From the NCBI GenBank assembly GCA_018389105.1, contig JACATO010002186.1:4106501-4170500 (forward strand): a DNA stretch of 64,000 bases, read 5' to 3'. The position numbers and the translations under genes were made by a program. Origin of the DNA: Nautilus pompilius. Its lineage: Eukaryota; Mollusca; Cephalopoda; Nautilida; Nautilidae. Shown here in pieces: positions 34,048-64,000 of this stretch (the first letter of the stretch is position 1; every line of letters begins with the position of its first letter). The notes under the pieces were generated by a model. It was not told where the DNA came from and searched no databases. It saw only the letters and a program-made list of their open reading frames with translations.

Positions 34048-34146
34048 CTCTTTTTGAATCAAAAAGTTCCAGAGTAGTGCTTCAATGTAGTAGTTAGTTC
34101 CTCCAACAATGATTGGAAGTTTTCCTTTATCTTGAAGCTGATTAAT
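34048..34146 (-). CDS. TRIT1: tRNA dimethylallyltransferase (TRIT1), exon 3
   Basis: Residues 90-122 (33 codons), phase 0 at both ends. Acceptor gatatctcag|ATTAAT; donor AAAGAG|gtaaga, a strong consensus. LPIIVGGTNYYIEALLW carries the GGTxYY motif that lines the substrate channel in MiaA-type prenyltransferases. Only about a quarter of a normal TRIT1 (about 460 residues in human) is thus in view. The rest of the catalytic domain, the tRNA-binding region and the C-terminal zinc finger were not found in 1-34,047 by eye. Confidence 0.94.
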
Positions 34147-36076
34147 CTGAGATATCGTTAAGGAAAATGCATAAAAAAACAGCAATCCATAATATAAAAA
34201 GCATTTAGGCAAGTAATAAAAAAATTATGTACAATAAGTTTAACTCTTTCCCTGCAAAAGTCAGAGATCACTGATGTATCATAGTTTTGTGATACTCAAT
34301 AGACGGTGGGTCAGTAGCACTGGACATTGTTAGTTTAAACATTGGTTAATGTCCTTGAGGGAATTCTGAATAAAATGGAGTGAATCTGCTCATGGAAATG
34401 ATGTAAAAAACTTTGGCAGGGAAAGATTAAAGAAAATAGATTAGTCATCAATTGATAGAAATCAATTTGATACTGAAATATCTTGAAGCAAAAACCAAAT
34501 GGTAGCAAATTTGCTTATCAAAACTTCTGAAGGCTGGAGAATACAAATGTTTAGGTAGTTTATAAAAGCAATTTGTTTTTGTTTTGTCATTATGCAAAGA
34601 CAGATAACTATAAGTATTTCATTTGTTCATAGATGGTGCATTCAGAAGTTCACTATTGTCCCAGAATGTCACCATGTAATATTTATGAAGGGAAATGTGC
34701 AATGTCTGTGACATGGCTAAACAGAAAAAGGTTGTCAAATCTATATTAACCATTCTGATATAACCATAACACAAGTATGTCCCATACAAATGTAGTATTT
34801 GTTTGAACACTTCATCAAATTAAGCTGGTACACTGGACTCAGTGACTATTCTATAGCAGACTGCCTATAGCACATGCTCAGGACTGCAAATCTTCTTTTA
34901 GAAATGTCAGTCTTAAATTTTTGCTACATTTTACTTACTATTACTACTACTACTATAAAAAAGTATCTCATTTAGCATCTATGCTAAGCATCATAAAAAC
35001 AAAATCTTGATTTCAAATTCTTTGTAGAGCAGCTTTTCTTTTTTATTTTCAAATGTAACTTAAAGAAAATTTTTTTAAAAAAATTCTAACCAAAACTCTC
35101 CCATCCTAATTTTCAGTACTTTTGTATTGCTTTCAATCTGACTTCCTGCTCTCAAGTTTTTGGAAGTCACACTGGTACTGTAATACTGCCCCTAAGTAAA
35201 TTAAGTATAGTCAGTTTATATAAATCATATTAGACAACAATATTTTATTGGCTGCTCTGTATAAAGGATGCAATGCTTGAGAAAATACCATACTGGTTTG
35301 AAAGTAATGATTTTACTTTCTATGGCTGGTATGTTCTTTCTCAGATAACTAATGTTTACAGCAAATGAATGATCTTGTGTATCTATGTGAATCTTAAGAC
35401 GTTTAATTCCACTGCAATTTTTTTAAAAATTGTTACGAAATTTCCAGTATTGCCTGCCTTATACTTTGACTTCCAGGTCAAAGGTCATGATAATAAAAAA
35501 AACCTACTCTTAGGTCATTTTTGCTAAAGGCAGAATCTGATCAAATCACAAGTAACAGATTGGTGTTATTGCTGGATCTGAAGCCCTGTGAAAAAATCTT
35601 TTCTCTCCCTAAACACCCAAAATAAAAACAAAGGTGGGACAGAAATTAATATGGTAATTTTTCTCTTTTACTTTATGATTTTTAATAGTCAAATGTGACT
35701 GAACTACTTATCAGATTCTAAAATATTTAGAATTTATTCTTTTATTGTATCTTATTAAAGTATTAAAAAATAATCACTTATCCACTTTTGAGTGGAGATT
35801 TTTAGAAAATTAGGTTTCCGATTTCTTATCAATACAGAGAATTCACTGTGGACAAAAACTTTTTTTCTTTTTAAAAGACAATGCATTTTTCTGTCATAAA
35901 ACTTATTTTCATCATTCATTAGCTTATCTTATAAATTTAAAATTGTTTGTCAAAACATCTACTAGTTTCATGTCCTGCTTATTTTTCTCTATCATTGACT
36001 GACATCACCTCAAAGACTCTTCCTAAAGGACCTAAAAGAAAGTTCAACAAAAAAGGCAGTCAAGCTGCTACATATA

Positions 36077-37592
36077 AAGGTGCATCACAAAAAAATTAGA
36101 ATATCATGGAAGAGTTCAATATTTTTTGTCAGTTATTTCAGAAAGTGAAAATTGTATATATTCCAGAATCATTACATGTAAACTAAAATGTTTCAAGCAT
36201 TTTTTAATTTTAATTTTGATAATTACGGCCTACAGATCAAAAAATAGAAAAAACGTATCTCAAAATATTAGAATATTCCATTTCGAGTTTGAGTAACTCA
36301 CTATTTACGCAGTATAAATACCACGAATCTCTCAGTCTGGTTCAGTACACACAACCACAATCATGGGGAAGACTGCTGACTTGACAGTTGTCCAGAAGAC
36401 ACTCATTGACACCCTCCACAAGGAGGGTAAGCCACAGGAGGTCATTGCTGAAAGGGCTGGCTGTTCGCAGAGTGCTGTATCAAAGCATATTCATGGAAAG
36501 TTGACTGGAAGGGAAAAGTGTGGTAGGAAAAGGTGCACAAGCAAGAAGGGATGACCGCAGCCTTGAGAGGATTGTCAAGCAAAACCGATTCAAGAACTTG
36601 GGGGAGCTTCACAAGGATTGAACTAAGGCTGGAGTCAGTGCATCGAGAGCCATCACACACAGACGTGTCCAGGAAATGGGCTACAAGTGTCGCATTCCTA
36701 GTGTCAAGCCACTCCTGAACCAGAGACAACGTCAGAAGCGTCTTACCTGGGCTAAGGAGAAAAAGACCTGGACAGTTGCTCAGTGGTCCAAAGTACTCTT
36801 TTCAGATGAAAGTAAATTTTGCATTTCATTTGGAAATCAAGGTCCCACAGTCTGGAGGAATAGTGAAGGGGCACAGAATCCAAGTTGCTTGAAGTCCAGC
36901 GTGAAGTTTTCAGTCGGTGATGAGTTGGGGTGCCATGTCATCTGCTGGTGTTGGTCCACTGTGTTTTATCAAGTCCAAAGTCAACGCAGATGTCTACCAG
37001 GAGATTTTAGAATACTTCATGCTTCCATCTGCTGACAAGCTTTATGGAAATGCTGATTTCCTTTTCCAACAGGACTTGGCACCTGCCCCAGTGCCAAAAC
37101 TACTAGTAACTGGTTTGCTGGCCATGGTATTACTGTGCTTGATTGGCCAGCCAACTCGCCTGACCTGAACCCCATAGAGAATCTATGGGGTATTGTCAAG
37201 AGGAAGATGAGAGGCACCAGATCCAACAATACAGACAAGCTGAAGGCTGCTCGCTATCAAAGCAACCTGGGCTTCCATAACACCTCAGCAGTGTCTCATG
37301 CAAAAGGAGCCCCCACCAAGTATTGAGTGCATAAACGAACATACTTTTAAGAAGTTTGACATTCCTATACTATAAATTCTTTTTTTTTTTATTGATCATA
37401 TGAAATATTCTAATATTTTGAGATAGTGGATTTTTGATTTTCATGAGCTGTAAGCCGTAATCATCAAAATTAAAACAAAAAAGGCTTGAAATATTTTATT
37501 GTGTGTGTAATGAATCTAGAATATATGAAAGTTTTAAATTACGGGAAAAAATGAACTCTTCAACAATATTCTAATTTTTTGAGATGCACCTG
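36077..37592 (+). mobile_element. Tc1-like transposon, nearly full length
   Basis: A 1,516-bp element between TA dinucleotides with tips aaggtgcatcacaaaaaaat (left) and caggtgcatctcaaaaaatt (inverted right). Inner inverted repeats around 36,235-36,290 and 37,400-37,455 (caaaatattagaatat) show the long IR/DR type of terminus. The plus-strand transposase is split by frameshifts into 36,363-36,554 (start MGKTADLTVVQK, first HTH), 36,676-37,035 (MGYKCRIPSVKPLLNQ, VLFSDESKF with the first Asp), 36,917-37,168 (FLFQQDLAPAP with the second Asp) and 37,135-37,326 (SPDLNPIENLWGIVKRKMRG with the Glu). All three DD34E residues survive, but the reading frame does not. Confidence 0.93.
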
Positions 37593-37610
37593 TACACACA
37601 CATACATATA

Positions 37611-38752
37611 CAAGGTTGGTCGAAAAAGAAACCAAACTTTTTATAAAACAAATTTATCGCTTTACTTACAATTTAATCAGATTTGTCTCCTTCAAAATAG
37701 TTCTCTCCACTGTCAATACACCGTTCTTGCAGCGAATTTTCTTTGATCTTTTTATTGTCTGAAATCAGTGACCTTTCGGGGTGGATTTCAACTTTGAGAA
37801 CAAAACAAAGTCCACAGGGGCCAAATCCGGAGAGTAAGGCAGCTGGGGGATGAGAGTCGTCTGGTGCTTTGCCAAAAAGTCACAGATAAGGAATGACACA
37901 CGAGCAGGTGCGTTGTGGTGGTGCAGCATCCAGGTTTTGTTTTTCCATTCCTCAGGCCTCCTCCTTCGCACTGCTTCTCTCTGACCACTTGGAACAAACT
38001 CATGATGAACGACGCTTTTCCAATCAAAAAAGGTGATCAACATCTCCTTCACATTTGAGCGACCTTGATGTGCTTTCTTTGGTCGTGGTGACGATGATCC
38101 AACCCACTGCGACAACTGTCTTTTTGTTTCCATATCAAAGCCATACACCCACATTTCGTCACCTGTTATGACACTTTTCAGAAAGCTTTCATCAGCATTC
38201 GAACAGTCAAAGAGCTTCAGACTGACTTGACTCGGTTCTTTTTTCATTCATCTGTCAGCAGATGTGGCTACACGATGCATGTTCAATTTTTCTTTTAAAA
38301 TCATGTAGCATGAACTTTTACAGATGCCTATTGCTTTGGAAACTTCACGGATCACAGCACGCACTTTCTCAATGTGATCGTCATCCGTTGTCATGAAAGG
38401 TCATCCAGATTTGGGATTGTCTTCAGTAGATGTTCTTCCAGATTTTAAATGCTGGTACCACTTGTGACATTGCGTACGGCTCAAAAAATCCTCCCCATAG
38501 GCCTGTTGCAACATTAGAAAAGTCTATGTACAGGTTTTTCTCAATTTGAAACAATTTCACAGATCCTTCATTGTTCAACTTGCGACAAATCGCCAAGTGC
38601 ACTAAATATACTTTCATTCTAGTGTGTGTAGATCGATTACTAACTGACATGGTGTGATGTGGCCATTATTAGACTGAAGGTCAAGGTCACCCGTTGCGCC
38701 GGCTGGTTGGCATGCTGTTTTAAAAGTTTGGTTTCTTTTTGAACAAACCTCG
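37611..38752 (-). mobile_element. Mariner (Mos-type) element, inactive
   Basis: A 1,142-bp element flanked by TA, inverted repeats caaggttggtcgaaaaagaa (left) and cgaggtttgttcaaaaagaa (inverted right). On the minus strand MSVSNRSTHTRMKV (start at 38,650) opens the transposase; a 160-codon frame at 37,765-38,247 covers LFDCSNADESFLKSVITGDE, QWVGSSSPRPKKAHQGRSNV and MLITFFDWKSVVHHEFVPSG. The second catalytic Asp is lost: HHHNAPARVSF replaces HHDNAPAHASF. There is a deletion after HEFVPSGQ, another before the C-terminal ERCIDSGENYFEGDKSD (about 37,680-37,730), and several frame breaks. It cannot encode an active enzyme. Confidence 0.93.
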
Positions 38753-45250: not shown

Positions 45251-45345
45251 TTATTTCATTTTCAAGGGTATGGATATTGTTATAAATATGAATTCACATG
45301 ATTTGCTATGAAAAACAAAAACAAAATAAAGATAATGATAATTTG

Positions 45346-45348
<3 letters not shown>

Positions 45349-45381
<33 letters not shown>
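45349..45381. repeat. TA dinucleotide microsatellite
   Basis: About 16 uninterrupted TA units directly after the Tigger remnant in TRIT1 intron 2. Shorter TA runs occur at about 1,161, 14,743, 32,075 and 59,237. Confidence 0.95.
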
Positions 45382-45383
<2 letters not shown>

Positions 45384-47430: not shown

Positions 47431-47571
47431 TAGTGGTATGGCTGAATTCTGAAAATCTACAACAGTATATTTCATGTTCAGTGGACTTACAAAATCAATT
47501 AGATGATGTGGACATGTTCTCCTTTCTTCTTCAGACACTTTGTTAGTTATTATATCGAGTTCTTTGTATAC
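47431..47571 (-). CDS. TRIT1: tRNA dimethylallyltransferase (TRIT1), exon 2
   Basis: Residues 43-89 (47 codons), phase 0 at both ends. The acceptor is ttattttag|[30 protein letters not shown] and [10 protein letters not shown] match the human [24 protein letters not shown] and YTVVDFRNRA. The donor CTA|gtatcc is weak and is followed at once by a pyrimidine run (a run of G on the plus strand). It is supported because joining PL to exon 3 (INQLQDKGKLP) aligns with human ALIEDIFARDKIP with no gap. Confidence 0.93.
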
Positions 47572-47668
47572 CTAAAATAAGAAAAATGAAATTAATATAA
47601 AGATTTGTTGTGTGTGGCTTTAAAGTATTTGCTTTTGTTTTGAATCGAAATGCATGGCATGAAACCAC

Positions 47669-47699
<31 letters not shown>

Positions 47700-48453
47700 T
47701 GAATAAAAGGCATACAATAATAAAATCCAATACAAGAGAAATCTTAAAATTTCAAATCATACCAACCAACTCCCCCCAAATTATTACACTAATATCTAAC
47801 CAAATCAAAGAGAAATTCTTTATTCAACCACATGGCAAAGAGTTAAAGAAAATAAGAGAGAGAAAAGAGGCGAGAGATTTATGGTCGATAGTAGACTGTG
47901 TGTTTATGAGAGAGATCACTGTACTTAAAGGGTTCAAATGAACCCTGTCCGAAATACCACTGCTGTAATGGTATCCAGCCGGACTTCATCTGAACGTCGC
48001 CACAATATCCTGTGTATGAAATCATTACCAATTATGCTCCTGGAATTTAGGGAGCAGTCTGGGTTAGTGGCGAGCAAAAAGGCCCCAGAGCTTTGCCGAG
48101 ATCCCTTTCCACCCCCTCAGGATATATAGGGTAAACTGATATCCATCATTAATGCCAGTCACTGTTGACTGGAGAAAAGAAACATCACCGGTTCGGCTCC
48201 ACATCCAATCTCCATGAATAAAGTAAAACCGAAGTCGGGGGGTTGGTAGACCGACGGACTGTACTAGTATCGCAGGCTGCTTGGTTACTATATATCATGT
48301 CTGAAGTACGAGGAGAAAGAACTCCGCTCTGTTGGCGGTTAAACCTGAAAGTGTTCGCTCCACGTGCCGACTATTTATCTGTTGTTAGACCCGTTTATGA
48401 ACAAAATTCCCTCCCCCCCCCAAACTCTTTCCTCTCTCTTCTCTGCCACTTGC
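47572..48453 (-). other. TRIT1 intron 1 (GC-AG)
   Basis: An 882-bp intron with a GC donor (CAG|gcaagt) and a ttattttag acceptor. About 47,930-48,250 is clearly richer in G+C and CpG than the rest and shows no host-gene match; it may be an old TE or a promoter-proximal CpG island. A 21-base A run lies at 47,679-47,699 and a C run near 48,411-48,421. Confidence 0.85.
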
Positions 48454-48579
48454 CTGCATAGAATCTGCACTAATGATTTCACCGGAGAAGAACTGTCCCA
48501 ATTCAAGTGCTAGCCTAGATTTGCCCGTACCGGTGGCACCAAGAATCACAACAAGCGGAATTTGTCGTCTGCCCGCCAT
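48454..48579 (-). CDS. TRIT1: tRNA dimethylallyltransferase (TRIT1), exon 1
   Basis: TRIT1 transfers dimethylallyl from DMAPP to A37 of tRNAs reading UNN codons, in cytosol and mitochondria. This exon gives residues 1-42, starting [28 protein letters not shown] (residues 14-21) is the P-loop; SADSMQ (37-42) is the conserved MiaA-family motif with its Asp. The ATG sits in a good context (caacaatgg) and the alignment with human TRIT1 begins about here; a further-upstream mitochondrial start cannot be excluded. The exon ends at CAG followed by gcaagt, a GC donor, in phase 0. The next exon continues [11 protein letters not shown], as in the family. Neighbour: MYC, 13.9 kb upstream on the same strand. 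Confidence 0.95.
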
Positions 48580-48693
48580 TGTTGCTGACCACGAGCGCCA
48601 CCTGTGATAAAAACTCGGCTCTTTTCGGAAATTTCCGATAGAATCACATATAAAATCTGGCGGTTACTGATAAACGTTACACGATACCACATC

Positions 48694-48730
<37 letters not shown>

Positions 48731-48740
48731 TTAGTTCAAT
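48580..48740 (-). promoter_or_regulatory. Probable TRIT1 5' UTR and promoter region
   Basis: Directly upstream of the TRIT1 ATG. The first 60 bases are GC-richer than background and include a CAGGTG E-box on the coding strand (48,599-48,604). A TAA/AAT microsatellite follows at 48,698-48,730. No TATA box is obvious. The placement rests on position only. Confidence 0.35.
48698..48730. repeat. AAT trinucleotide microsatellite upstream of TRIT1
   Basis: About eleven AAT units roughly 120 bp upstream of the TRIT1 start codon. Length variation here could alter the spacing of promoter elements, but nothing shows that it does. Confidence 0.95.
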
Positions 48741-49431
48741 AACAGCATTTGTTATTTTCTGTCCGTTTGTCAGTCTCCTCCCCCCGGGGAGGGAGAGAGA
48801 GACGGATGGCCGCCCACATCGATACCGTGTCGCCATTGATGTCGGTATCGTATCCTAAAGATAAATAATGGGCGGTCCGGACTCGATCGGCAAGAAGGGG
48901 GGGGGGGGGAAACTACCTGAATGGCATCCAACGAGATTACTATTACTATTATTGTAGGCGGCATGATGCAATACACACATCTAGAATCGGTTTCTCATCT
49001 ACTACGAACTTGTTCTGAATTAACGGGAATAAAAACGAGTAAACCTTAAAAACAAGAGGAAAAAAATGAATCTCCCTCCCACAACCTTCAGAGATTTAAA
49101 TCATTTCTGAAAAACAAATGGTCTGCTGTTTTACAGAGACGACAGTACTGTCCAACGACGACGAATGGAGGAGACCCGCCTCCATCTCAGACTTTGCCAT
49201 ACTATTAAAACCTGAACAGCTGCCTGTTCCTTTTACTCTCGCCGGATATTCCATACATCTGTTGGCAAAGAGAATTTATAAAAAAAAAGCTAACAAAAAT
49301 TTCTTTATGAAGAGTGTAATGTAGTAATAATTATTTACAAGAAAAGCTGCTGTTAATGGTTTTAAGTGAAAACAGTACTATAGATTCCTCCACTGATGTG
49401 ATAAAAAGATGCCATCAAACTGAGGGCAGGA

Positions 49432-49668
49432 TCAGATGACTAGTCCCCATGTGGGTGGGGAGGAGAGGTGGCGAGAGAGTGAGGTCATATGGCCTACCCA
49501 GCCATGGTACTGGTGATGTGGGTAAAAGCCCAGTACATTTGACTCCAGTTCAAACAATCCCCTAACAGTGCTATACACATCCTTTTTTGTTCGTCTATCT
49601 GGAGCTGTTTGGATAATTTTACCACTGTAATGATCAACCAGAGCAAATATCTTCATGGGCTTTCAAGG
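49432..49668 (-). other. Unassigned open frame or candidate exon upstream of TRIT1
   Basis: Preceded by a pyrimidine-rich tract and AG (ttctctccttgaaag at about 49,659-49,673). Reads MKIFALVDHYSGKIIQTAPD, then RRTKKDVYSTVRGLFELES. KIFALVDHYSGKI loosely recalls DDE transposase cores of the piggyBac type, where a similar phrase occurs, but the rest does not follow. I assign no function. Confidence 0.22.
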
Positions 49669-52553
49669 AGAGAAAAAAAATTCCACTGAGACTACGGATG
49701 GTTTGGAATTTACAGAAAGTGGGTAACCTCTCTCCTCCCACCAATGACAAAACACCTACCACTCTCCTTCTTCCATTGTTCCACACTCGAGAGAAACCAT
49801 CACACAAACTTATATTTTTTAAAATTTATTTTTCACCTGCCGCACGTACCGAATTTACATCCTGACAGTTTGGATAAATGATTAAGTGAAAGTTTTATCA
49901 TCACCAGTAAGATTGGCTCTTCTAAAACTGAGTCAAACACTGCAAAGACACCATACAAAAACATGTCGGAACTGCATCAGTCACAAAATAAATATTTATT
50001 AAAAATCAATAAAAATGAGAGAACCAAATCCCAAACACAAACAGATCAATTTAGGTATAAAACACCCAGGGATGGAATAGTAAAGAAAATATAGCAACTA
50101 AATGAGATATGTTTACAGTAATTATAATACAAATTAAAATAGATTTTGATATATTTTTAGTGAATATATTCATAAACTCCATTTCATTTGAGGAATGTGA
50201 ATTCTACGAGTGTAGGCTTCCTTCCCCATTGCATATAAACAAAATATTATCATTACCAAAGTTGAAGATAAAATAAAATTAGTCTGCTAAAACTTCTCAA
50301 TTTATACACAATATGTTTATCTAAAAGTTTTGTCAGCTAAGAAACTCCACATTATCAATTTGTTTTGGTGTAATGCTTTCTGAGAGAGAACTTCATCATA
50401 TGATATTTTTTACAGAAATGAATCCCTGATAAATTGTGGAATGTTAGTCTTACCGCACCTTTTTTTTTTGGAAATGACTGCTATGCAACAATGCCTTTCA
50501 GAATCTCACAGGATCACACCAATTATCCATTTAAGTAATTTGAAACATTTTTCATCTAGCTATTCTACTAAAGAAACCTGGCTCCATATTTCTAAGTTAA
50601 TGTACAAACAGACTTTTAAGCAGTTTGTATAGTATCTTGACCGAGTTTCTAGCTACTGATAAAGACATTTTCCAGATTAACAGTATAGCAGCTCATACTA
50701 GAAATAGGCAGAATCCCCTTTTAAATGCAAATATTACTGCATTTGTAATGCACCATCAGTTCAAGCATGTTCTTTTGCCATTTTTTAAAATTGTTCCATT
50801 GCAGCAGCATTTTCTTAATTACTGTTGAATAGGAATTTATTTGAAATTTGGTACACCACCTATTTTAAGACAAGCGATAGGAGAGATTGCTAAATCTGAT
50901 TTAAAGTCTTGCGCAAAATTTGCTCATGGTGGTTTTCTAAAGGTTGATTTTTTATGTCACAACTTATTTTGCCCCAATTGTCCCTCTGTCTTGATTACAT
51001 TGAAAATGAATTGTGGGCCAAGTATAGGGGTTTCTTCCACAAAGCAGTTTTCGTGTCCCATCACAAGAGGGCGTCTGATTGTTTTTCTTCTCAATCTGAG
51101 CAGAAATTTTTGTTTAGCTTCTGTTTTTTTTTTTTTTGGTAATTTCAAATTAAGAGGAAATTGGGTCCAAGAACATTCACACTGAGCCAAAATTAGTTCC
51201 AAAAGAAAAAGCATCATGACGCAGGTTTAATGTACATGCACAAAAGAATTTATTGGTACATAATTTTAAAATGCAGTTCTAAGACACACTGCTAACTCTG
51301 GGTAATTACTTTTAAAGGTTTTCTGGAGTGCTGGACTAGTAATTGATTAGCCAGCTGGGTTGCAAATGTTAAATGTAATGCATGAAGTAGGGCAGAGCAT
51401 GGGTCTATACATCCCTGGGCAGGCAAAGCAAGATATCTGACAAGTGACTTTCCAATGTAAATGTATTTTTAATATACAAATTAAAATGAGGCACAAATTC
51501 AGCAAGCACTCAAAAACTGATAACTAGACATCCACATGGAAGATGTAGTTTGATGTCTATAAACACCAATGTCTTAGTTTGAGACGAGTTAATGAAAGGG
51601 ACAAACTATTTTTAGCTTAGTATAAGCACAAAACGCCCGATCCAGAATTTCTTTCTTCAAATTTAACATGTTAGTTACAAAGTCATGCAGTTTCTAAAAG
51701 AGCTAACAAAATACTGAAATGTTGAACAAAATCATCGGAGCATAACTAAACTTTGATTTATCCACACGTAGAGTATGCTGCCCATACTTTCAGAGATAGA
51801 GATAGGTTCAAACACAATCTGACCTACATGAAGACTATAAAAATGCTGAAGATGGCAAGTGTTAAGAAGAATACAGAGATGAAGAGTTGATAGAGGTAAT
51901 CAAAATATTTAAAGGCTCAAAAATGTTTTGAAACATTTTTTTTTTTTTTTACATTATCTATACTGACAATGACAGAAGTCACCAGTTTGTACTCCTTAAA
52001 TGCAGAGTAGATTAGATGTTTATATGTTTGATAACAGGTTGAATTTTGGGATTGAGCTCTGAAAATTTCTTTAGAAATGCACTTTATCAGCATTTTGGGT
52101 TCATAGGGGGCTGCATGAATGTCAAGGATTTTCTTCCATTTTGCACACTATACCATAGAAAGCAGTTACAGGATTAGAAAATTATCGTGTTGTTTGTCTT
52201 CATCAATTTTTAAAAATATATCACATTGGTGACACACAACGGTCTGAGAAAGGTTTTGGAAGAATCTCAAGGTATTAGACTGAAACAAAATTCTGGCTAA
52301 AGTCAATCTCAATTTTTTTTTATTTTTTAAACGAAATAATATAATAGGATCACTGCTTTAAACATAATGAAAAAAAGATGCAAATTATCTGTTTCTCTTT
52401 AATCTCGAGACCATGCAAAGTTTAGTTGTGAGAAAATGTTTACAATAACAAGGACCAGAAAAAAAATTATATGTTTTAAAATTCCTGCATCATCCTAAAC
52501 AACAAATTTGTTTTAGATTTATTATTTATGAATTTCTTTTGTTGAAATCCTAG

Positions 52554-52856
52554 TCAAACTAATATTTCATTGAAGTTTGCTGGTGTCATTCTTACTATAG
52601 ATGCCATTTCCACTACTGCATTAAAAATGTCTGGCGCATTGGCACCATGAATATCAAAACAATGCTCATCTAGCTTTAGTGCATTAATTTTTGCCACTGA
52701 TGTATACATACACACTAACACACAAAAATCTAGGCATGGTGCATATGGCTTTGCATTATCAGGGGGCATCAATCTTTGAGCCAATGGAACTGAAAGCACC
52801 GGCACGTTATTCCCCACCCAGCACTGCAGATGACTCAAACTCCATCTCTGATGCAT
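52554..52856 (-). other. Unassigned 100-codon open frame between MYC and TRIT1
   Basis: Open from an ATG at 52,856 to a TGA. Includes LAQRLMPPDNAKPYAPCLDF, LDEHCFDIHGANAPDIFNAV and VEMASIVRMTPANFNEILV. The composition looks more protein-like than most chance frames here. A stop immediately precedes the ATG. No family recognised; it could be a TE fragment or a small gene. Confidence 0.22.
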
Positions 52857-53679
52857 TCATTCCTTGATGTCCTTCCATTGCTGTATGACCCGCTAAGATT
52901 CTAGGTATGCACACTTGAGACCTCCACATCAGCAGGAGGAAAGGATTCAGTGTTGGATTCCATCACATAGCAAGTAGATAAAGCAACTAGGTAACGCGCA
53001 TAGTCTAGAAGTCGTTTTTGTGAGAAAATAAAGCCCAAAATGTACAGAGAGGAAATGATAATGTAGGCCAACATCCTCCAGAATATATTATCTTTAGTAT
53101 AGACCAAAGTGATTGTTAAATGACTTGTCAGTGCCTAACCATTTTTGGCCAGTTTACTAAGGCAATTTCAGGCGACTCGCATAAAAAAGTATAAGTATCT
53201 ACGATTTTTTAAAAAAATTTCCATAAGTCATGCAAGGATGCAGAAAATCTTTTTCTAAGTGATTGAGCATTAAGCACAAACCAAATTTTCTATTAATTAT
53301 TATTGACTTAAACCATTTATAAAAGTATTGTTGCAAGATGTAATAAAACACATATCACATACTGTATCAGTAATTTTTCTTGCATTTAAGAAAACAAATT
53401 ATTTGTTAAATCATTACAATTTCTGCTAATATCAATGTATGTCAGGGTTTTGGAAAAATTCTACATAGGAGTTAAATGTAAAAACTTAGAAAATGTATGT
53501 TTGTAGTTATAGATAACTCTCCAGCCCATGGCAAGAGGCAGCCTACCAACCTGCTCCTGTGAAACAGTGACATTCTGAAACTACACTATTAAATTCATCA
53601 GAAAACATCAAAGACCTAAAAGTAAGATGATGATGCAAAGTAACCTAACCTGCAAGGAAATTACCTCGCTGAAGAATCT

Positions 53680-54340
53680 GCACTCTCCTAAATCCATAAC
53701 CAGGATTGGTAAAAGGAATGTACAAACAATGCATGAGACTGGTAAAAAGATCGAAGTAGCAGAAGAAATGGAAAGATATCAAGTAGACATATTATAATTA
53801 AGTGAAGTCAGATGGGTAACATCAGTACAAGTGACAATGTCAACTACACATCTGCTACTATCCTCTGGAATACCAAATCCAAAAATGAACACACGGATCA
53901 TATTCGGATAATACTTTCAAAGAGAGCAGCTAAATGTTTGATAGAATAGGAACCAGTTTTTTTTGAAAGGATCATAACAGTGTGTTTTACATCAAAATTC
54001 CAGAAAGTGTTTATTATCCAACATTATGCACCTACAAATCAAGCCAATCAAGAAATGAAAAAAAACTCTCATGAGCAGTTACAGAACATTGTCCAGAAAA
54101 AAGATGTCCTATTGGTAACTGGAGATGGAAAACATCAACATCGACAGAGAAGAAATCATGTTCAACAGGGTCTTGGCAAGATAAATGAGAATGGTGAAAT
54201 GTTTGCCATTTGTGGAATAAATAACTTAGTCATAGGAGAAACTGTCTTCCTTCATGAAAGCATAGGGGTCAAAAGACCGCAAAACAGGAAACCAAAATGA
54301 TTGCATTATAATTTCACACATAGATGGAGAAAAGCCTTAG
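53680..54340 (+). pseudogene. Non-LTR retrotransposon endonuclease remnant
   Basis: An apurinic endonuclease (EEP) domain of the kind often annotated as craniofacial development protein 2-like. RNVQTMHETGKKIEVAEEME near 53,715 corresponds to the WNVRTM start of the domain. The 106-codon frame at 53,980-54,300 has VFIIQHYAPTNQA, KKDVLLVTGDGKHQH (GDFN-like) and NENGEMFAICGINNLVIGET (family NENGERL..FC..N.LVIGGT). A frame break then gives a short piece similar to IDHI-ISKKWR. No reverse transcriptase was found downstream. An old 5'-side fragment. Confidence 0.72.
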
Positions 54341-57000
54341 ATAATCTAAAGAGTAAGGGCAGTGTGGGCAGAAATATATTGGTGTATGCCAAACTGAACA
54401 AATAAGAGGAAAAACCAAGCAACAGAGCAGCTCATACTATAGCAGGTCACAGCTAAGAGATAACAGGTAATTGTAGCCGGAAATGATGCAATGCTGAAAA
54501 ATAAATGGACGGACATAAATATTTATTACTAAGTCTGTAGTATTATATGTCAGAAAGACCAGGAGACATACCATAGCCATCCCATCTAAACTAAATGGCC
54601 ATAGTTTACAACAGCAGGAATTCATGAAACAGAAATGGGTCAGGTCACACATGGAGAAGACTAAATTAATATAACACAGGAGGCACTAGAATAAAATGCA
54701 CAAAGAAAAGAAAACAAGGAAGAACAAGGACAATAAGGAGACATAACAGAAGCAAAGTGAAAATCCATTGGAATATCCTGGAGGAAAGCGAACATAGCAA
54801 CAGGGGACCAACCACCTACAGTATCCATTTTCTTCCTCCATATGCTCCTGTTGTTATTTACCTAGATGAATACTTAAAAAAAGCCTTTCTAAAATTTTCA
54901 TCATCATCAGTGTCCAGGAAAATTGCCTAAAAATAATTTTTTTGTACCTTTGTAAGTGAAAAAAACCCAGATGATTTCAAGAATTTTTCCTGTGTAGGTT
55001 GCTGCATAAAATTTACTTATAATTTTCTGACATTGTATTAACATAATTGTTTTTGTGTGTGCGCAATTCTTAGAAAAATACTGGGGAAAGTAGGGGTCAG
55101 ATGTCAACAGATAAAACCATGATAGGAAACATGAAATACAAACCAATTAAACTTACATACCTGATATATATTTGGCTGCTGAAAGATGGACTTTCACCAT
55201 TTCTTCACATCCTTAAATGTGGCAATTTTCCTACTAGCAATTGTGTATTTTACATTCATTTAACACTGCATCACAACCATCCTTTTCAGAAATATAAAAC
55301 TGCATTGTCAGTTTTGGTCCTCTTTAGTTCTTGATTTACTTAAACGCCATTCTTTGTATGGTAGACACAAATATTAAGTTTATCACATGAAACTAAAATC
55401 TGAGCGAGTTAATACCAGAAAAGGTAGAGATGAATTTCAGATGAATCTGAATAACTTAATAGATGAAGCAGTGAGGTGGAAAATAAGGAAATATAGACAA
55501 CTATTTTTTTATCATTATCAATAGTGTGGCAGTTCAGTTGTTAGTTTACTGACCCGATTGAAAATGACACGAATACCTACCTAGCAGGGTTATATCTTGC
55601 TTTTCTTTTCCACCCAACAATGTGCGCTTCCATCAGGCACCCAGTTTCCTTGCATCTAAAAATGAAAACCACTAGCAAGGATTTTCTTGCCAAAGCAGAC
55701 ACGCCCCCTACCATTCCAGATTAGGTCACTCTAAGAAAAGTACTTGACCTATTATCTTTTTATAATTTCACATTGAAAAATATGCTTGCTTACTTCCTAG
55801 AGTAGGAATGCTCTTAAGAGAAAAGAAATATCTGTTTTCTCCAATAGTAGAGCAGGGTTTTCTGCCCTGCACTCGTGTAAAAATTTCCAATTATTTAAAG
55901 AGTTGAAATCTGTGCGAAAGTTTTTAAAAAATGAGAGAAAATGTGCAAGGCGAAAGTGGAAAATTTGAAATTTGGTGATTCAATGAAATGAATCACACAG
56001 ATTTATTAGATAAAACTATGGGCAAAAGCAATGTTAAACAGTCTGGACATTCAGTATTAAACTTGAAAAGTATGGTATTAATATTGAAACAAAAATCCAA
56101 AGCAACTGAATACTTCCAGAAATCAGAGTTAGAGAAATGCTGACAGCCATGACAACTGAGGGTGAGAGTAAAACAAGATCTATCTTTCCACAAAATCAAT
56201 TGCTTCAGGATAAAGTCTAAAGGAAACAAGCATGCAGATGACAGTTGCTGGTAATCTGCACATGAAGCCAATGGATTTCTATCTATAATGGATCACTAAT
56301 ACTTGGGCCAGACTGTCTGCCAATCTTATCCAGGACTCATTCAATGTTTGCAGCATTTTTGGTACTCCAAATGGGGAAATCACATGATTCATTCATTCAA
56401 AGATTAACTCTGCTTGTTGGGTTGCAAACCGTGGCATCAAGAGAACATTTCAGAAAGGTTGGAAAAAGTGCTGATTGCAGTATTTTGCTTTTACTGCTTC
56501 CGTCTCTTCCAGACTGATTGAATAAAAAAACATAAACTAAGGTCTACTATTACTTGGCACACTGAATTAGCAAACTTAGTTCCAGAAATATCTAAAATAA
56601 ACAGTTCAGCTGCCAATAGAATACTATTCAAATAATTAACCAAAACCATTAATCTAAGGAATTTTAGTAAAATTATGCAAACCTTTTTTCATGCTCTCCA
56701 TGGAACTGCAGTAGAAATGAGTCAAATTTTAAAAAGGGATATTGAAATATTTAAGAATTCACTGCAAGTCCAGATTTTAAGCATTCAGGACTTCCTAAAC
56801 AATTACAAATATTATATTTAACTTAGTTTGGGTAGGCTTTCAAATAATCCAAGTTTTTACAGCTGTCTACACTTAATATTAAAGACCATTAATTAGAGAA
56901 TGTACAAGAGCATTCTAGTTCCTCAGACATACAGAACAGTAAATATTTGTACATAAATTAGTGAGCCTTATGCATTAAAAAAAATCTACTTTGTATCAAA
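54340..57000. other. Intergenic AT-rich sequence
   Basis: Between the LINE remnant and the 71-bp tandem duplication. Only chance open frames; nothing supported. The 54,340-54,800 part may still be decayed LINE sequence. Confidence 0.45.
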
Positions 57001-57001
57001 T

Positions 57002-57145
57002 TCCTAATTGTGTTTTGAAAGATACTATTCTCAGAAACTCATATTTACAGAATTATTCCATAGAAAAAAATATCCTAATTGTGTTTTGAAAGATACTATT
57101 CTCAGAAACTCATATTTACAGAATTATTCCATAGAAAAAAATATC
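57002..57145. repeat. Perfect 71-bp tandem duplication
   Basis: Two identical adjacent copies of a 71-base unit that begins tcctaattgtgttttgaaag, starting at 57,002 and 57,073. The lack of any mismatch points to a recent duplication or a collapsed or variable minisatellite. Confidence 0.95.
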
Positions 57146-57861
57146 TCCACATTAAATTAAATTAAGATAAAGTTGAGGCTTGAATTATAACTTTTAACAT
57201 ATAGAATTTGATTTTTAATGTTTGGAACCAATAATAACCTGGTTAAATCTCACAGGCACACAATTGGCAATACCTTTGCGGCTTTAACCAGATGTAGAGG
57301 GGCCCCCCCCAAAGTATGAAGCATAATGACCCAGAGTTCAGTACCCCAGTGGAGACATTGGTTTGCTTTAGAGGGTAGTTTCCATTTTAGTGCTGGCACA
57401 CTATGCTTCAAGACGAGGGGAATGAGAATGCTTCTAGCGTTAACAACAACATTGCACAAGCTCAGCATTGATGCTTGCAGGAATTGCTCACATGTCATTT
57501 CAGATGAATCACAAACTGTTTGCTTAGCATTCAGTTGAATTCCACATACTATAAGTGCATAGTAGTAATTTAGTTCCTCACTTCTAAAGCAACTAGTTTA
57601 TCTAACAGTTGTATGGCCCTGCCGAGTTTGCACGTGAAGTGCAAATTTTGCTCTGTCTGCAGTTTTAACAGGTGAGTCAAAATTTTAATTTTCAAAAACA
57701 GTTGGCTTACCCGGGGGTTCAGACACTTGATAAATCTACTGAAGCTTTCAAAAAATGAGCTTTGTTTGATCGCATGGCGGCCACAAATTTGTCTGCCTAT
57801 AAATACTTGATTAATCAATGATAATGAACTGCTAATATGCTAGCGCTGAGCAATATTTTAA

Positions 57862-58509
57862 CACGCCCCTCACGAGCCAGGTGGTCACCTTCTCATTGAT
57901 ACAAAGCCCCAGGTCATTGCAGAATAGATATCCTTTTTATTTGAGAATTTCCGTGGGTGGAGAGAAGCCATTTGTTGACCTCTATTTTATTCTCAGTGCA
58001 TCATATGAGAAATTATTGAAAAACCACTTCCCCAACTTTGTAGGTAGAAACTCTTGTGAAGCGTTAATAATGTCTAGTAATGAAAGTAGTACCTTGAATT
58101 ACCATGCGAATAGTCCCTGCTGCAGCTGACGACGTTCAGGGAAGACAGTCAGATGAGCAGCTTTCCTACCAAATGGTAAAGTTAAAAAAGCTTTATTAGT
58201 TTGGTGAAGCAGAAGCACAGGAGGCGGCACACAGCAGTAAGTCAGAATGGATCACGTGTGCTGCCTGCTTCACGTGTTGTATAGCCTCAGGACTATATCT
58301 GCATACTTCAGTATACATTTGTACTGCGTAGTACTGAAAACTCAAATGCCTTTTTCTTCTTTCAATTTTCGTTCAGAAAGACGTTTTGAAATCTGTTTGA
58401 TGCGATAAGTTCAAATATCACCACTTCAGATGCTTCCACAATGTTCTAGGGAATGTCAACAACCCACCCTATAGTAGAGAGAGAAACTACTTGGCTCCTG
58501 AGGGGCGTG
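57862..58509 (+). mobile_element. TTAA-flanked MITE, copy B (full length)
   Basis: A 648-bp element with terminal inverted repeats CACGCCCCTCACGAGCCAGG (left) and, read inverted from the right, CACGCCCCTCAGGAGCCAAG. The left flank is TTAA (57,858-57,861); the right flank is TAAA, one base off. It has the same orientation as copies A and C. No transposase is encoded. Confidence 0.82.
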
Positions 58510-61500
58510 TAAAAAGGTGTAGCAAGAAAAATCCCAACTGAATGGAATAAAACAACACATTTGCATCGACATTGCTGGCATTAATCAGTTTAAAAACCAA
58601 ATTTATGGTCGTTTTGAGAACATGCATTCTCTGGGTCTTAAGCAAAGCTTTGCATTTGAATATTCAAGAGCTATTTAACATCCGATCTTCACCAAAAAAA
58701 AAAATAAATTTTTTTTAAAAATTACCTCTTAAGTATTTAATGCAAACAAAAATATCTATATTTTATACACAAAACTTTCTAGATTTATTAATTATATGAA
58801 AAAGTGTGCAAATCCGTCCAAAACAATGTTTTCTCCACAAATAACGTGTTTCAGATGCCTGCCCTTCTCCACACACACAAGGACCATGTAGATTTAAAAG
58901 AAAATAAAAAAAAAAAAATTAACATTTCAGTAAAAAAAACCAAAAAAAAAAAAAAACACTCTTTCCTAATAAGTTTATTTTAAAATAAATTTTTAAAATA
59001 AAAGTGAATAAATGCAAACTGGCAGTCCGTGTAAACTTCTCCACACATTTTGAACAAAAAAAAATTTTAGCATTTCCCTTTCATTGAATTAACCAGATAC
59101 AAAAAAAAAACTGTGTAACTCAATGTGATTTTAAATAATAAATCGAGAAGGGTTTGAGACCAAAACTTCATTTAGATGCTTGCAGAATTTGTTATTGATA
59201 ATAAACTAGGTTTTCAAAAATATATATTTTTCCAAGGTATATATATATAGAAAAATCAGAGAAAATGGCAATCCAACAAGCAAGGTGTTTGAGTACTCAT
59301 CGTTATAGACCAGTCACAAATAGTTGGAAATATGAAATGCACCATTGTTTGGGTGGCTGCTGCTGAACCCATGAAACTGGCAGAGGAACCAATGCGACAA
59401 GTCTAGTAAGGGTTGATTTCTTTTCATAATCGTACACGAAGAGAAAAACAAGTTATGGAAACTAAATTCTTTCTGACTGCAATGGCCAACTTAATTGATG
59501 TCACTCGCTCTCATGTTTAAAATATTCCATCACAGTAAAAGAATTCATTAGAATCCGAGAAACACTAATATTCTGATTTCAAATGTTAAAAAGTAATTAA
59601 TATTTTTTTATCCATAACCTATATATTTCACAGTGGATGGGAACGTGCTAACAGAAAGCTAAGTTCCGATAAAGAAAAATTTGACAAGTTTCATAAATAT
59701 GAAAGCTCCGTTAAGTTTGTTCTTTAAATAAGCGTAGCGGAAATCTGGTGACAATGTTTAGATGCGCATTCACGCTATTTTCAGTACTCAGCCAGTCCTA
59801 AGTAGTGAAAATTACAACCTATAATCATCATTTTTCTCTTAGAATTAGCATAATAACTGTATCAAAAAATGTGCTTATAATATGCATAGAATGCTTTTTC
59901 TACAAATTAGTTTTTAGAAACTGCTTTGCATCTGTAAGTCAGCATGCATAAAAAAGATGCTTATAAGAGTCTGCCAACAAAAACCGTAATGTTGAGAACC
60001 TATTTCTAGCAGCAGGCCAACCAAATCAAAGCAGGCTAAGATTGGTAGGCATTGCAACAGTGGTTAGGCAGTACTAGAATGCAGCAGGAGGAGGAAAGAT
60101 CTAATCCACATCAATATTTCTAGCACATCTAACCTACGTGCATGTAATTTAGTTTTCAAGTCGTACAGCACAAAGGAATAATTATGTAAATGCTTTTAAC
60201 AAGCTGTTCAGTTAGGTGAACTTGATAGTAGTCAGCACTGAGCTAGTAATAAACTAGAGATAGCACACACACACACAATTTAAATTATAGTATACAGTAT
60301 AAACCATGCAAAAATAATCTGCTTATCAAACAAAAAATATTTCAAATTAAGTTGAGGAAAGAAAGAAATTGCTTATTTTTTCCTTCAGCTTTCTAGATGC
60401 TGCTGCAATAAGCATATTTATAATGCATACATTTTAAAAGAATTAACATTTTAATTAGAAAGCTTTGAAATTCAGAGTTATTTCCCTTGTTTTATTACTA
60501 AGATGAGCTTAGTCAAAGCGTAGTACCCAAACCTAGTGAACATTTAGTTTACCCCATGTTCCCTCCCGCATTCTCAGTAGGGTTTGTTGTCCAGTAAATA
60601 TAAGGGAAATGTAGGTTTCATATGAATGTAGTTAATCCTTAAATGCACAAATTGCTAGTCTAAAGCCATCAAAACCCAAAACAGGTATCACAATTAACAC
60701 CCATCTGCCATAGATTAGGTAGAAACTGCTTGCTAACCCATAATAATACCATTCTGCAGATCATATTCATTTTTAAGGACCCAAAACTTCAAGAAACAAA
60801 AACTAAATACCTAACTTAACATTTACATCCATACTTGGTCAGAAACATAATTAGTGAATTTTTATTAAAACCTTAGATGTTTTGAGAATCAAGCTATCCC
60901 CATTTTACTTCTACATCAAATCTTGTACTAACCACAGTTCCGTCCAATACACAGCACAGTGAAGAGCTTTCTTTAAAACGTACGGCTGTTAAATTTGTTT
61001 CCGCGTTCCCATCATGTCTTTACCAATTTATAGTTTATTACTTTAAAACATTCTAGTAAAACTGTCATCACCACAAATATAATTCTTTTTATACTGGAGA
61101 ACGAAAGTCACAAAGTCTAACCAATGAATTAACTAGCTGTAGGTATGTACGTCTCCTTCACATTTTCTGATGTAATAAAACTTGGCATTATAAATCTACT
61201 AGTCTTCCCCACGTCACGCCTAGAAAGGATCTTGTAGGAAGCTGGAGCACACCAGACCAGTACGCTCAGCCCATGGTGCTAAGGCGGAACAGGCAATCAG
61301 ACTCTGAATCACTTAATGAAGCCGAGTGAAATTAACTTCACAGAAAGTTGTCAAGAGCACTCCCCTCCACATCATCAGGTATGGTACTAGATGTACATTT
61401 ACTTTTCTACAAAGTCTTTCCAGAGACAGGGCTTATCTGTGGATTCAAGAACACTCCAAGACTGTACAGGAAATCTAGGTTTGTCGCATTTCGCAGTCGT

Positions 61501-61840
61501 TGCTGTTCATATTTCCCACAGCTCTGGTGCGAAGTTAAACGGCAGCCAAACAAAATAAAATAGGCTGATATTTTTCGTTTTATTACAAACAAATACTTAA
61601 TTCAAAACAAACAAACACCACACACACAACAACAACATGCTTCTTCCTTGTCAGTCTATACTAACCAAACACAAAAGGTTTTCACTTGTCATTTATTCAT
61701 TCACTCGTTTAGTGGGAAGGCAAAATGGAATGAGTACATACATGTACACGTGTGTGTGTGTGTGTCAATGAAGTGTGCTGTGATGAAAATCGGAATGTGG
61801 GTTGAACCAAATCAAATGTTGTGTTACGGAAACAAATCAG

Positions 61841-61874
<34 letters not shown>

Positions 61875-62457
61875 GAGGTCAGGTCACGCCCTTTAAAGAT
61901 TTTCTTAAAGCAATAAAATCACCCCAGCAAAACTAATTTTAAAAATGTGTAAATATGAAGGAAAATTTTTTGAAATCATTTAAGACAAATTTTGTAGTAA
62001 GAGGCAGTGATTTGCTGTGTTGGGGGAGGGTGCCCGAATATACACACACACACACATACATAAATATGAACTTTGCACTCGCACACCCTAGTTAATATTC
62101 ATGACCCCAGTTTTGATTGGTTGAGGTCTAAAAGTTTCCCGCCAAATATAATGCCAGTAGACAATGAATAAGCGCTTACCCGTCATATCAAATGGGAGAC
62201 GTGACCTGACCAAAATTACTTTTTTTTTTATACTTAATCTATAATAATAATAATAAAGATAAAGATAAATGCACTCAACATAAATAAAACCATTGGTCTG
62301 CCACTCGCAGGAGATATAGAACCAAAGAAACTTAACAAGATCTGCTGTCTGAATTATAGAGTTAAACGGACTATGTGATGACAAATAGAAAAATGGATGG
62401 AAGGTGGAGAGAAGGATGGATGCTGCGGAGAGGAGGGAGCCAGCTGCTGGTGGCGGC
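58510..62457 (-). other. MYC 3' flank and probable 3' UTR
   Basis: Downstream of the MYC stop. No protein-coding gene is visible. It holds CA/GT runs (near 60,265, 61,750 and 62,042), the ATT microsatellite, several A runs near 58,700-59,110, and AATAAA on the MYC strand at about 61,842 and 61,578. 61,200-61,570 is GC-richer with open frames on both strands that I do not recognise. The transcript end cannot be set. Confidence 0.4.
61840..61875. repeat. ATT trinucleotide microsatellite
   Basis: About eleven ATT units, 0.6 kb downstream of the MYC stop codon. On the MYC strand it reads AAT repeats and includes one AATAAA, which could act as a poly(A) signal. Confidence 0.93.
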
Positions 62458-63086
62458 TCAATGTCGATGATTCGCGTGAGCTGCCAACACGAGTTTTTTC
62501 AAACGATCTCTTCGCGCTTTCTGTCGCTGTAACTCGGACTGTAGGAGTTCATGCTGCCTAACCAGCTGCATTATGTGGTATTTAGCTTCCTTCAGAATAA
62601 CAACTTTGGCAGCCTTTTCTTGTCCCTTGATCTCCGGGACTTCGTCCCGCAGAGTGAAGAAGCTGTATTTGAGGTCGTTCCGCCGCTTCCTTTCCAGCAC
62701 ATTGTGCTGAGTCCTTTTACCTTCGCCTTCGATCTCCGAGTCCGGCTCCAGTTCTGGCAGTGGACACGGGAGAGCGAGGGAAGGGCGACGGTCGTTCTTC
62801 AGTTTTTGCGCCACGGACTTCAGTTCGGTCACACCCAGCTCCCTCTTCATTTTCTTACCGACTCTCGAAGGGGCTGGCGACGGCCGCGTCACCGAACGGC
62901 CCCTTTTCGACGGGGCCCGACGGACGATGACCGACTCCTCGTCGTTGTCGTCGAACTTTATCGAACGGAGAGCAGACCGTACGTGTATCCGTGTCCCCAC
63001 GTGCTCAAAGGTAACTGTCCGGGTCTGCTGAGACGACGACAATTTCTGTTTGTTAGTATCCACAGTCACCACGTCGAGTTCGTCAT
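62458..63086 (-). CDS. MYC: MYC-family transcription factor, bHLH-zipper terminal exon
   Basis: This is the DNA-binding and dimerisation exon of the same gene. It begins after an AG acceptor (aatctag|atgacg) in the phase left by the upstream exon and ends at TGA: 208 full codons. DDELDVVTVD at its start is the conserved Myc motif after the intron. A basic, Ser/Pro-rich stretch (RAPSKRGRSVTRPSPAPSR, KKMKRE) and an acidic patch (ELEPDSEIEGEG) precede the bHLH. HNVLERKRRNDLK carries the His, Glu and Arg that contact the CACGTG E-box. SFFTLRDEVPEI and KAAKVVILKEAKYHI form helix-loop-helix. The zipper that would pair with MAX has Leu at two heptad positions, then Gln, then Leu, ending LKKLVLAAHANHRH. 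With the upstream exon, 358 residues are visible, near the length of whole L-Myc even without the N-terminus. Confidence 0.95.
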
Positions 63087-63551
63087 CTAGATTTTAAAAT
63101 AAAAATAATATAGAGTAATTTTCAAAATATATATATATTCTAAGAAACGGAACTGAAATCTGCACAAAGGGAGGTTGGGGGGGGCGGGTGCTCGCTCCGA
63201 CCCACTGTCGTGAACCCTTGTAACGGACCTAATTATGTCACTGGTTGCGTTAGCGAACCCAGATTCTCACCGTATTTAATTTCCACGTTTATAAATAAAA
63301 TGGACGTACATAGGTCTGAGAGCTAATCCCCCCCCACCCCTGGCAGAATACCCGTTTCACCTGGCGCACCCCCAGCTACTAACCCCGCCGACACGATACC
63401 GTGTGTCGGGCTGGGACTCACACACACACAAGAAATCCATCTATCTTCCTAGACAGACATACTGGGGTGAATCATCTAACCCAAAATCGATAGATACCAG
63501 ACCTACAGATTGTCGTTGTTGTTGTTGTTGTTGTTAGGAAGAAGAACCAAC
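63087..63551 (-). other. MYC intron between the two visible coding exons
   Basis: A 465-bp GT-AG intron (gttggt donor, ttttaaaatctag acceptor), phase 1, at the conserved Myc position just before DDELDVV. It holds a GTT trinucleotide run near the donor (about 63,514-63,535), a CA run near 63,420, and C- and G-rich stretches. It is far shorter than the TRIT1 introns. Confidence 0.88.
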
Positions 63552-64000
63552 CTGTGTCCGATGGAGTCTCGATACCCTGACTTCGATCACCGACACTCAA
63601 GGGGAAAACCAAAGTCGGGTCCACACACCGACTCTGAATGTCCAGGGTGGGCGAATGCAGGCTGCTGCTGCTGCTGCTGGTGGTGGTGGTGGTGGTGGTG
63701 TTGTTGTTCTGCTGAAATGGCTCGGATTTTTCGGGCGATTTGAACGAGTGCTCGATCCGTCCCGACCACATACAGTCGTGAATCAGAATGGAACTCAGGT
63801 TATCCTTTTTCCCCGGCGGCGATTCCGGGAACTCCAGGTCCCTCGTCCCTCCGTCCTGGTACTCGATGGGCGACGGGTACAAGTCGTCGGGCACGTCGCA
63901 GTAGGCGCCGGCGCCCTCCTCGTCGGCGCTCCAGCGGCTGTCCGCCGAGAGCACCGCCGCCGCCCGCGAGGGAGAGTCGGGAGGCGTGTTGATGTCGAAC
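63552..64000 (-). CDS. MYC: MYC-family transcription factor, N-terminal coding exon (5' incomplete)
   Basis: This exon encodes the transactivation region of a Myc protein and runs off the window, so its start is missing; 149 codons are visible. Reading in from the edge, FDINTPPDSPSR looks like Myc box I and keeps the T-P-P-x-S-P spacing of the Thr58/Ser62 phosphodegron. ILIHDCMWSG, about 70 residues later, is a clear Myc box II core (family DCMWSG). The usual hydrophobic FSAxxKL tail after box II is absent; RIEHSFKSPEK follows. A run of 3 Asn, 7 Thr and 6 Ser comes next, then ETPSDT. The donor is CAG|gttggt, leaving the first base of a codon. Joining to the next exon gives PSDT-DDELDVVTV, matching the family's SDS..EEIDVVxVE. 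The Myc assignment is firm; the paralogue (c, N or L) cannot be told. Confidence 0.93.
63661..63714 (-). repeat. Coding trinucleotide tract in MYC (Ser/Thr/Asn/Gln)
   Basis: Six AGC, seven ACC, three AAC and two CAG codons in a row on the coding strand, giving Q2-N3-T7-S6 in the protein. A nearly pure codon tract like this is expected to be length-variable. A related GTT run lies about 125 bp away in the intron. Confidence 0.9.

Follow-up and report, generated by a model that had tools for sequence, protein, structure and literature searches.

A MYC–TRIT1 gene pair in Nautilus pompilius, probably older than the vertebrate duplications, and a long CpG-intact stretch on the 5' side of MYC

Introduction

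Does the adjacency of a MYC family gene and TRIT1, as found for human MYCL, date from before the vertebrate gene duplications, and what might have kept such a pair together? This question is raised by a 64,000 nt stretch of the Nautilus pompilius genome (G000:C2084:4106501-4170500; hereafter the window), which carries the 3' part of MYC and the first exons of TRIT1. The assembly comprises 727,640,739 bases in 2558 contigs. Including flanks from the same contig, a total of 264 kb was read around the locus, and positions outside the window are given as window-equivalent positions. The best explanation, to which as a whole we assign a probability of about 0.62, is an ancient MYC–TRIT1 neighbourhood in which MYC would be controlled from a domain on its 5' side and which slow rearrangement would have retained. 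That the adjacency goes back to a common ancestor, that the domain is regulatory, and why the pair was retained are what we infer from the sequence.

MYC and TRIT1 are arranged head-to-tail

Both genes are situated on the minus strand with MYC upstream, and 13,878 bp separate the MYC stop codon from the ATG of TRIT1. The original prediction of a head-to-tail pair on the minus strand, with a gap of 13.9 kb and no recognised host gene in between, is borne out by the exon structures:

63552..64000, minus strand: 3' part of MYC exon 2, cut by the window end (Pfam Myc_N, 34.5 bits; donor GTTGGT)
62458..63086, minus strand: MYC exon 3, an open frame with an acidic DDELDVVTVD stretch, a basic helix-loop-helix (bHLH)-leucine zipper and the stop codon (Pfam HLH, 40.1 bits)
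48580..62457, no strand: TRIT1–MYC interval, 13.9 kb, mostly CpG-poor (CpG observed/expected ratio, o/e, 0.41)
48454..48579, minus strand: TRIT1 exon 1 with the P-loop GATGTGKS, ATG at 48579 (tblastn hit to human TRIT1, 77% identical over 39 aa; miaA, 29.4 bits)
47431..47571, minus strand: TRIT1 exon 2 (Pfam IPPT, 51 bits; tblastn, 62.5% over 48 aa; donor GTATCC)
34048..34146, minus strand: TRIT1 exon 3, GGTNYYIEALLW (Pfam IPPT, 31 bits; splice sites)

The MYC stop codon occupies 62458-62460 on the minus strand, and exon 3 is preceded by the acceptor TTTAAAATCTAG. With the flank added, the coding sequence (CDS) is complete: 64146-63552 joined to 63086-62458 gives an open, in-frame CDS of 407 aa starting at window-equivalent 64146. 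Myc_N and HLH both score above the Pfam cut-off within this single CDS, which places it in the MYC family. Compared with structures in the PDB, its bHLH-leucine zipper is nearer to MYC, the best match being Myc proto-oncogene protein (1nkp_A, 63.9 bits; MAX, 45.9 bits). MYC boxes I and II were identified by eye in the translation, by their motifs (EDIW...TPP.SP and DCMWSG, respectively).

The exons with an IPPT domain, the P-loop and a GGTNYY motif identify the second gene as TRIT1/MiaA. The tblastn query was a human TRIT1 sequence. All Pfam matches of exon 1 are below cut-off; the miaA cut-off is set for the whole protein, and the 29.4 bits stem from a single exon. Exons 1 to 3 are all phase 0 and cover only the first ~122 codons. 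Exons 4 to 6 were located in the left flank at about -39.9, -40.8 and -59.5 kb, and since exon 4 sits there intron 3 measures ~74 kb. The gene thus extends over at least 108 kb with an incomplete 3' end; intron 1 has 882 bp and the large introns have about 13.3, 73.9 and 18.6 kb. Intron 1 begins with an apparent GC donor (CAG/GCAAGT, 48448-48453) and would be a GC-AG intron. No terminal exons were recognised within the 264 kb, beyond which the gene may continue. Animal TRIT1 has a C-terminal C2H2 zinc finger; residues 280-467, which would include it, gave no convincing match in the 264 kb. Exon 4 lies within a 153-codon open frame (-39971 to -39513), and an acidic, lysine-rich stretch before the conserved part of this frame suggests an insertion.

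In the interval between the genes no host gene was found among open reading frames of at least 120 aa or in a codon scan for coding segments (best 110 of 315 segments). The interval contains a 71 bp tandem repeat, two perfect head-to-tail copies at 56998-57145.

Both genes were found once in the assembly. Myc_N has one match, the MYC of the window, and all matches to IPPT (4/4) and miaA (5/5) fall inside the TRIT1 of the window; the search works per exon and scores none but its top candidates, and might therefore overlook a copy that has diverged strongly.

The pair in a mollusc and in human

The host had been supposed to be a non-vertebrate, and two seven-unit molluscan hemocyanin genes agree with this. 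PF14830, the domain of molluscan hemocyanins, was matched 14 times, seven times each on contigs C557 and C1362; the genes lie at C557:780470-791999 and C1362:511129-522124 and are either paralogues or uncollapsed haplotypes. For the last unit the best single-unit chains are 4yd9_C (613.6 bits) and 1js8_A (593.3 bits), which we take to be squid and octopus hemocyanin functional unit g (FU-g), followed by 8tnv_A (486.5 bits), presumably, like 1lnl_A, from a gastropod. Multi-unit chains sum to higher scores and are of no use for telling groups apart. With a second unit the single-unit chains were not separated (1lnl_A, 384.4; 4yd9_C, 380.6; 1js8_A, 372.2 bits) and lend no support to a cephalopod placement, as would be expected if these reference chains are of a different unit type. 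Overall the host is a mollusc and very probably a cephalopod. FU-h is absent from cephalopod hemocyanins according to a passage in PMC7931591.

The human locus is similar in that at 1p34.2 a MYC family gene adjoins TRIT1 in the same order and in the same orientation. The human genes are roughly 12 kb apart, with MFSD2A on the side of MYCL opposite TRIT1. The loci differ on that side: MFSD2A belongs to the human block, whereas in nautilus no host gene was recognised over 100 kb, among frames of at least 110 aa, in the codon scan (best 110 of 315 segments) or by Pfam on 10 frames. Part of PMC3155907 places TRIT1, MYCL1 and MFSD2A within one 106 kb linkage disequilibrium block at 1p34, and TRIT1 and MYCL1 are the only genes listed for a 0.09 Mb human amplicon in a section of PMC3806277.

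Orthologues are thus adjacent in a protostome (a mollusc) and a deuterostome (human), in a comparison of one invertebrate with human in which orthology is taken from family match and single copy. The same order in both means that the linkage would have existed before the vertebrate duplications, and with a single MYC and a single TRIT1 in a non-vertebrate this is the simplest reading. The original prediction that the linkage predates the duplications is therefore probably right, and MYC and TRIT1 probably were neighbours before vertebrates and molluscs split. The pair would be an additional ancient microsyntenic pair, known here from two species. Microsyntenic pairs of ancient metazoan origin, along with genomic regulatory blocks, were reportedly described by Irimia in 2012. 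The likeness is that unrelated genes, one of them for a transcription factor, are adjacent across phyla; the differences are that only two species are compared here and that the CpG evidence given below points away from the introns of the neighbour. Among the titles listed from open-licence PMC, none dealt with MYC–TRIT1 linkage in invertebrates.

A long CpG-intact domain on the 5' side of MYC

A two-state segmentation, CpG against TpG/CpA, was run across the 264 kb and gave two features of note:

62140..64000 in the window and on to window-equivalent 121682, no strand: CpG-intact domain with MYC at its edge (segmentation)
47871..49243, no strand: promoter CpG island of TRIT1 (o/e 0.90 in the segmentation)

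The domain has 59,543 bp (o/e 1.04, GC 0.42). It begins ~320 bp past the stop codon of MYC and runs in the direction opposite to TRIT1, to the 5' side of MYC. It is the sole long segment of this kind in the 264 kb, the other 11 CpG-normal segments each having 1.73 kb or less. TRIT1 introns 2, 3 and 5 are CpG-depleted (o/e 0.21-0.26), and intron 1, beside the promoter island, has an o/e of 0.67. In fine profiles of 46-70 kb and 112-130 kb an excess of TpG/CpA prevails outside the domain and is mostly absent within it, and the excess outside fits past methylation there. CpG climbs unevenly from ~57.5 kb and then jumps near 62.1-62.5 kb.

Beyond MYC, no host protein gene was found in the domain among frames of at least 110 aa, by the codon scan (best 110 of 315 segments) or by Pfam, procedures that could miss small exons and noncoding RNAs. 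Ten frames between 66 and 118 kb, hand-picked from the codon scan, had been tried as candidate genes; Pfam gave one match above cut-off (a DDE_1 transposase), one far below (HEF_HK) and none for eight.

The domain was compared with other places in the assembly, a sampled point being called CpG-intact at an o/e of 0.7 or more. Seventeen control points of 400-2000 bp were hand-picked at round positions (11 on C2084, two each on C117 and C2021, one each on C557 and C1362), and two of them were CpG-intact. The homeobox samples, 600 bp each, were taken beside 10 of the 98 homeodomain matches, hand-chosen within the first 20 and situated on eight contigs, with two pairs on a common contig. About 2 kb from the exon 9/10 were CpG-intact (the tenth, 0.67), and at ~10 kb this held for 8/9 readable samples (the other, 0.44; one piece consisting entirely of N was left out). 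The hemocyanin loci are intermediate (o/e 0.40-0.86) and two MFS_2 loci are low (0.28 and 0.32), matched gene controls being few. Because the homeobox flanks are CpG-intact as against 2/17 controls, in a genome that is mostly CpG-poor elsewhere, the MYC domain seems to belong to a class of domains found round homeobox genes too. As a side observation, 19 of the 98 homeodomain matches fall in the initial 12 kb of a contig, perhaps a very short one, as if the assembly broke near such genes.

A long CpG-intact stretch round a regulatory gene in a CpG-depleted background resembles the DNA methylation valleys of vertebrates, as far as sequence goes. Such valleys mostly measure a few to tens of kb; the nautilus stretch differs in being 59.5 kb long for one gene, and in being known here from its base composition. 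In octopus, according to part of PMC9476566, less than 10% of the CpGs are methylated, enriched in the bodies of a subset of genes. We regard the CpG layout as the more unusual part of the locus, compared with the linkage.

How MYC might be controlled and why the pair was kept

It had also been suggested that control elements of one gene lie in the introns of the other. This is not supported and fits poorly with the CpG-poor TRIT1 introns 2, 3 and 5 and with the position of the long CpG-intact stretch on the far side of MYC; the idea is weakened short of being refuted, because CpG content is a footprint in the sequence and differs from an enhancer assay. We favour control of MYC from its own 5' domain over control from the introns of TRIT1, which would then be a neighbour across a boundary. 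TRIT1, a tRNA i6A37 modification enzyme, looks like an ordinary housekeeping neighbour.

In the explanation that we prefer, the bilaterian ancestor would have had a single MYC directly upstream of a single TRIT1, head-to-tail. This pair would have survived in the slowly rearranging nautiloid genome, and of the copies that arose by the vertebrate duplications MYCL would have retained TRIT1 too. Control of MYC would more likely come from its 5' side, from the 59.5 kb of CpG-intact sequence in which no further host gene was recognised, than from TRIT1 introns. Since TRIT1 looks housekeeping and MYC is likelier to be controlled from the 5' stretch, slow rearrangement would be the most likely reason for the survival of the linkage, perhaps aided by selection against breaks near MYC.

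The strongest alternative, which overlaps with this explanation and may hold, though at clearly less than even odds, is passive retention alone: little rearrangement in the nautilus lineage and in the MYCL region, with no functional constraint. The Nautilus genome evolves slowly according to a part of PMC8257504 and is organised like that of other molluscs according to a part of PMC9023564, and two more human neighbours that were tested are both off C2084. What speaks for an additional constraint is that a dosage-sensitive regulator lies beside a long gene-poor domain, where breaks would be expected to be selected against.

A genomic regulatory block, in which enhancers of MYC reside in the huge introns of TRIT1 and selection keeps TRIT1 attached as a bystander, appears unlikely to us. 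TRIT1 would offer the room, with its at least 108 kb and introns of about 13.3, 73.9 and 18.6 kb, and bystanders as described in parts of PMC9023564 and PMC8851819 have this arrangement, in which a regulator neighbours a gene unrelated to it. These introns are however the CpG-poor ones, they carry transposase fragments, and the long CpG-intact stretch is on the opposite side of MYC.

Chance or convergent adjacency, or a misjoin, is highly improbable, although a single assembly was used and the CpG shift falls between the genes, as a misjoin could make it: a given gene lies next downstream on the same strand with a chance of 1/17,709 x 1/2 = ~2.8e-5 (uncorrected for the pair having been picked as already adjacent in human, and with the gene count of 17,710 given in part of PMC8257504), copies of one repeat family are present on both sides of the CpG-intact domain and within it (-62545, 117929 and 126396; 81-83% alike), which argues that domain and surroundings are of one genome, and CpG rises unevenly from ~57.5 kb, which is compatible with a misjoin although a clean step would fit one better. 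From the CpG gradient and the shared repeat family a chimeric assembly was judged unlikely. PMC12407938 cites a second nautilus assembly, GCA_047652355.1.

Several points weigh against the explanation that we prefer. With one invertebrate compared, an independent origin of the adjacency is conceivable, if improbable. A wider conserved block with the human neighbours was considered and rejected, because the three matches to the MFSD2A family (MFS_2) lie on C1008, C992 and C340 and the three to the PPT1 family all on C117, none of them on C2084; a looser linkage of MFSD2A and PPT1 may exist, contigs being less than chromosomes. CAP, searched by PF01213, had no match anywhere in the assembly, and neither had the controls. 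CpG content mirrors past germline methylation and is no test of regulation. Two small CpG-intact islands in TRIT1 intron 3 (343 and 384 bp) may be neither transposon nor repeat. Finally, repeat copies within the 264 kb make up 4-7% of TRIT1 introns 2, 3 and 5 as against 3-4% of the CpG-intact domain, so repeat cover hardly separates the TRIT1 side from the 5' side of MYC.

MYC and MYCN lie by gene deserts in vertebrates. We put forward tentatively, and regard as rather doubtful, a two-sided ancestral MYC locus with TRIT1 downstream and a long CpG-intact, gene-poor control domain upstream, which would survive in nautilus and in vertebrates would have been split after the duplications, MYCL keeping TRIT1 and MYC and MYCN keeping the gene deserts; nautilus would then have multi-kb CpG-intact domains at homeobox genes and at MYC, as in vertebrates and unlike octopus. 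Ancient linkage of the pair would give a MYC gene a chromosomal address traceable to before the vertebrates, and MYCL would therefore be the copy that remained at the ancestral address. Why such pairs persist becomes testable at a major growth regulator, and a methylome that confirmed the CpG layout would reveal large protected domains round regulators in a mollusc.

Transposons and short CpG-intact segments

Searches for tRNA genes and Rfam families gave no match in the window, and Rfam gave none in 140 kb of the flanks (14/20 stretches). Pfam, run on 10 frames of the window and thus liable to miss other transposase matches, found three fragments:

20278..21018, plus strand: MULE transposase fragment in TRIT1 intron 3 (Pfam MULE, 56 bits)
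36622..37032, plus strand: Tc1-like transposase fragment in TRIT1 intron 2 (Pfam HTH_Tnp_Tc3_2, 31.7 bits, cut-off 31.5)
37768..38247, minus strand: mariner-like transposase fragment in TRIT1 intron 2 (Pfam Transposase_1, 22.7 bits, below the cut-off of 24)

The matches are of DNA transposon types, MULE, Tc1 and mariner, the last below cut-off. A part of PMC8257504 describes the Nautilus pompilius assembly as having 730.58 Mb, the smallest cephalopod genome sequenced then, with DNA transposons predominant, and the matches of the window agree with such a make-up.

With the domain at MYC and the promoter island of TRIT1 set aside, 10 short CpG-intact segments remain in the 264 kb. Five have further copies of at least 74 bp in the region (-62545, 126335, -22899, -80916 and -32244), the segment at 19754 contains the MULE domain and has 66-bp partial copies, and four (15143, 24848, 154717 and 161598) have no second copy. 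TRIT1 intron 3 has five such short islands, three of them with a transposase domain or repeat copies. By eye, the segment at 161598 overlaps a transposase-like frame and that at 15143 resembles a short DNA transposon.

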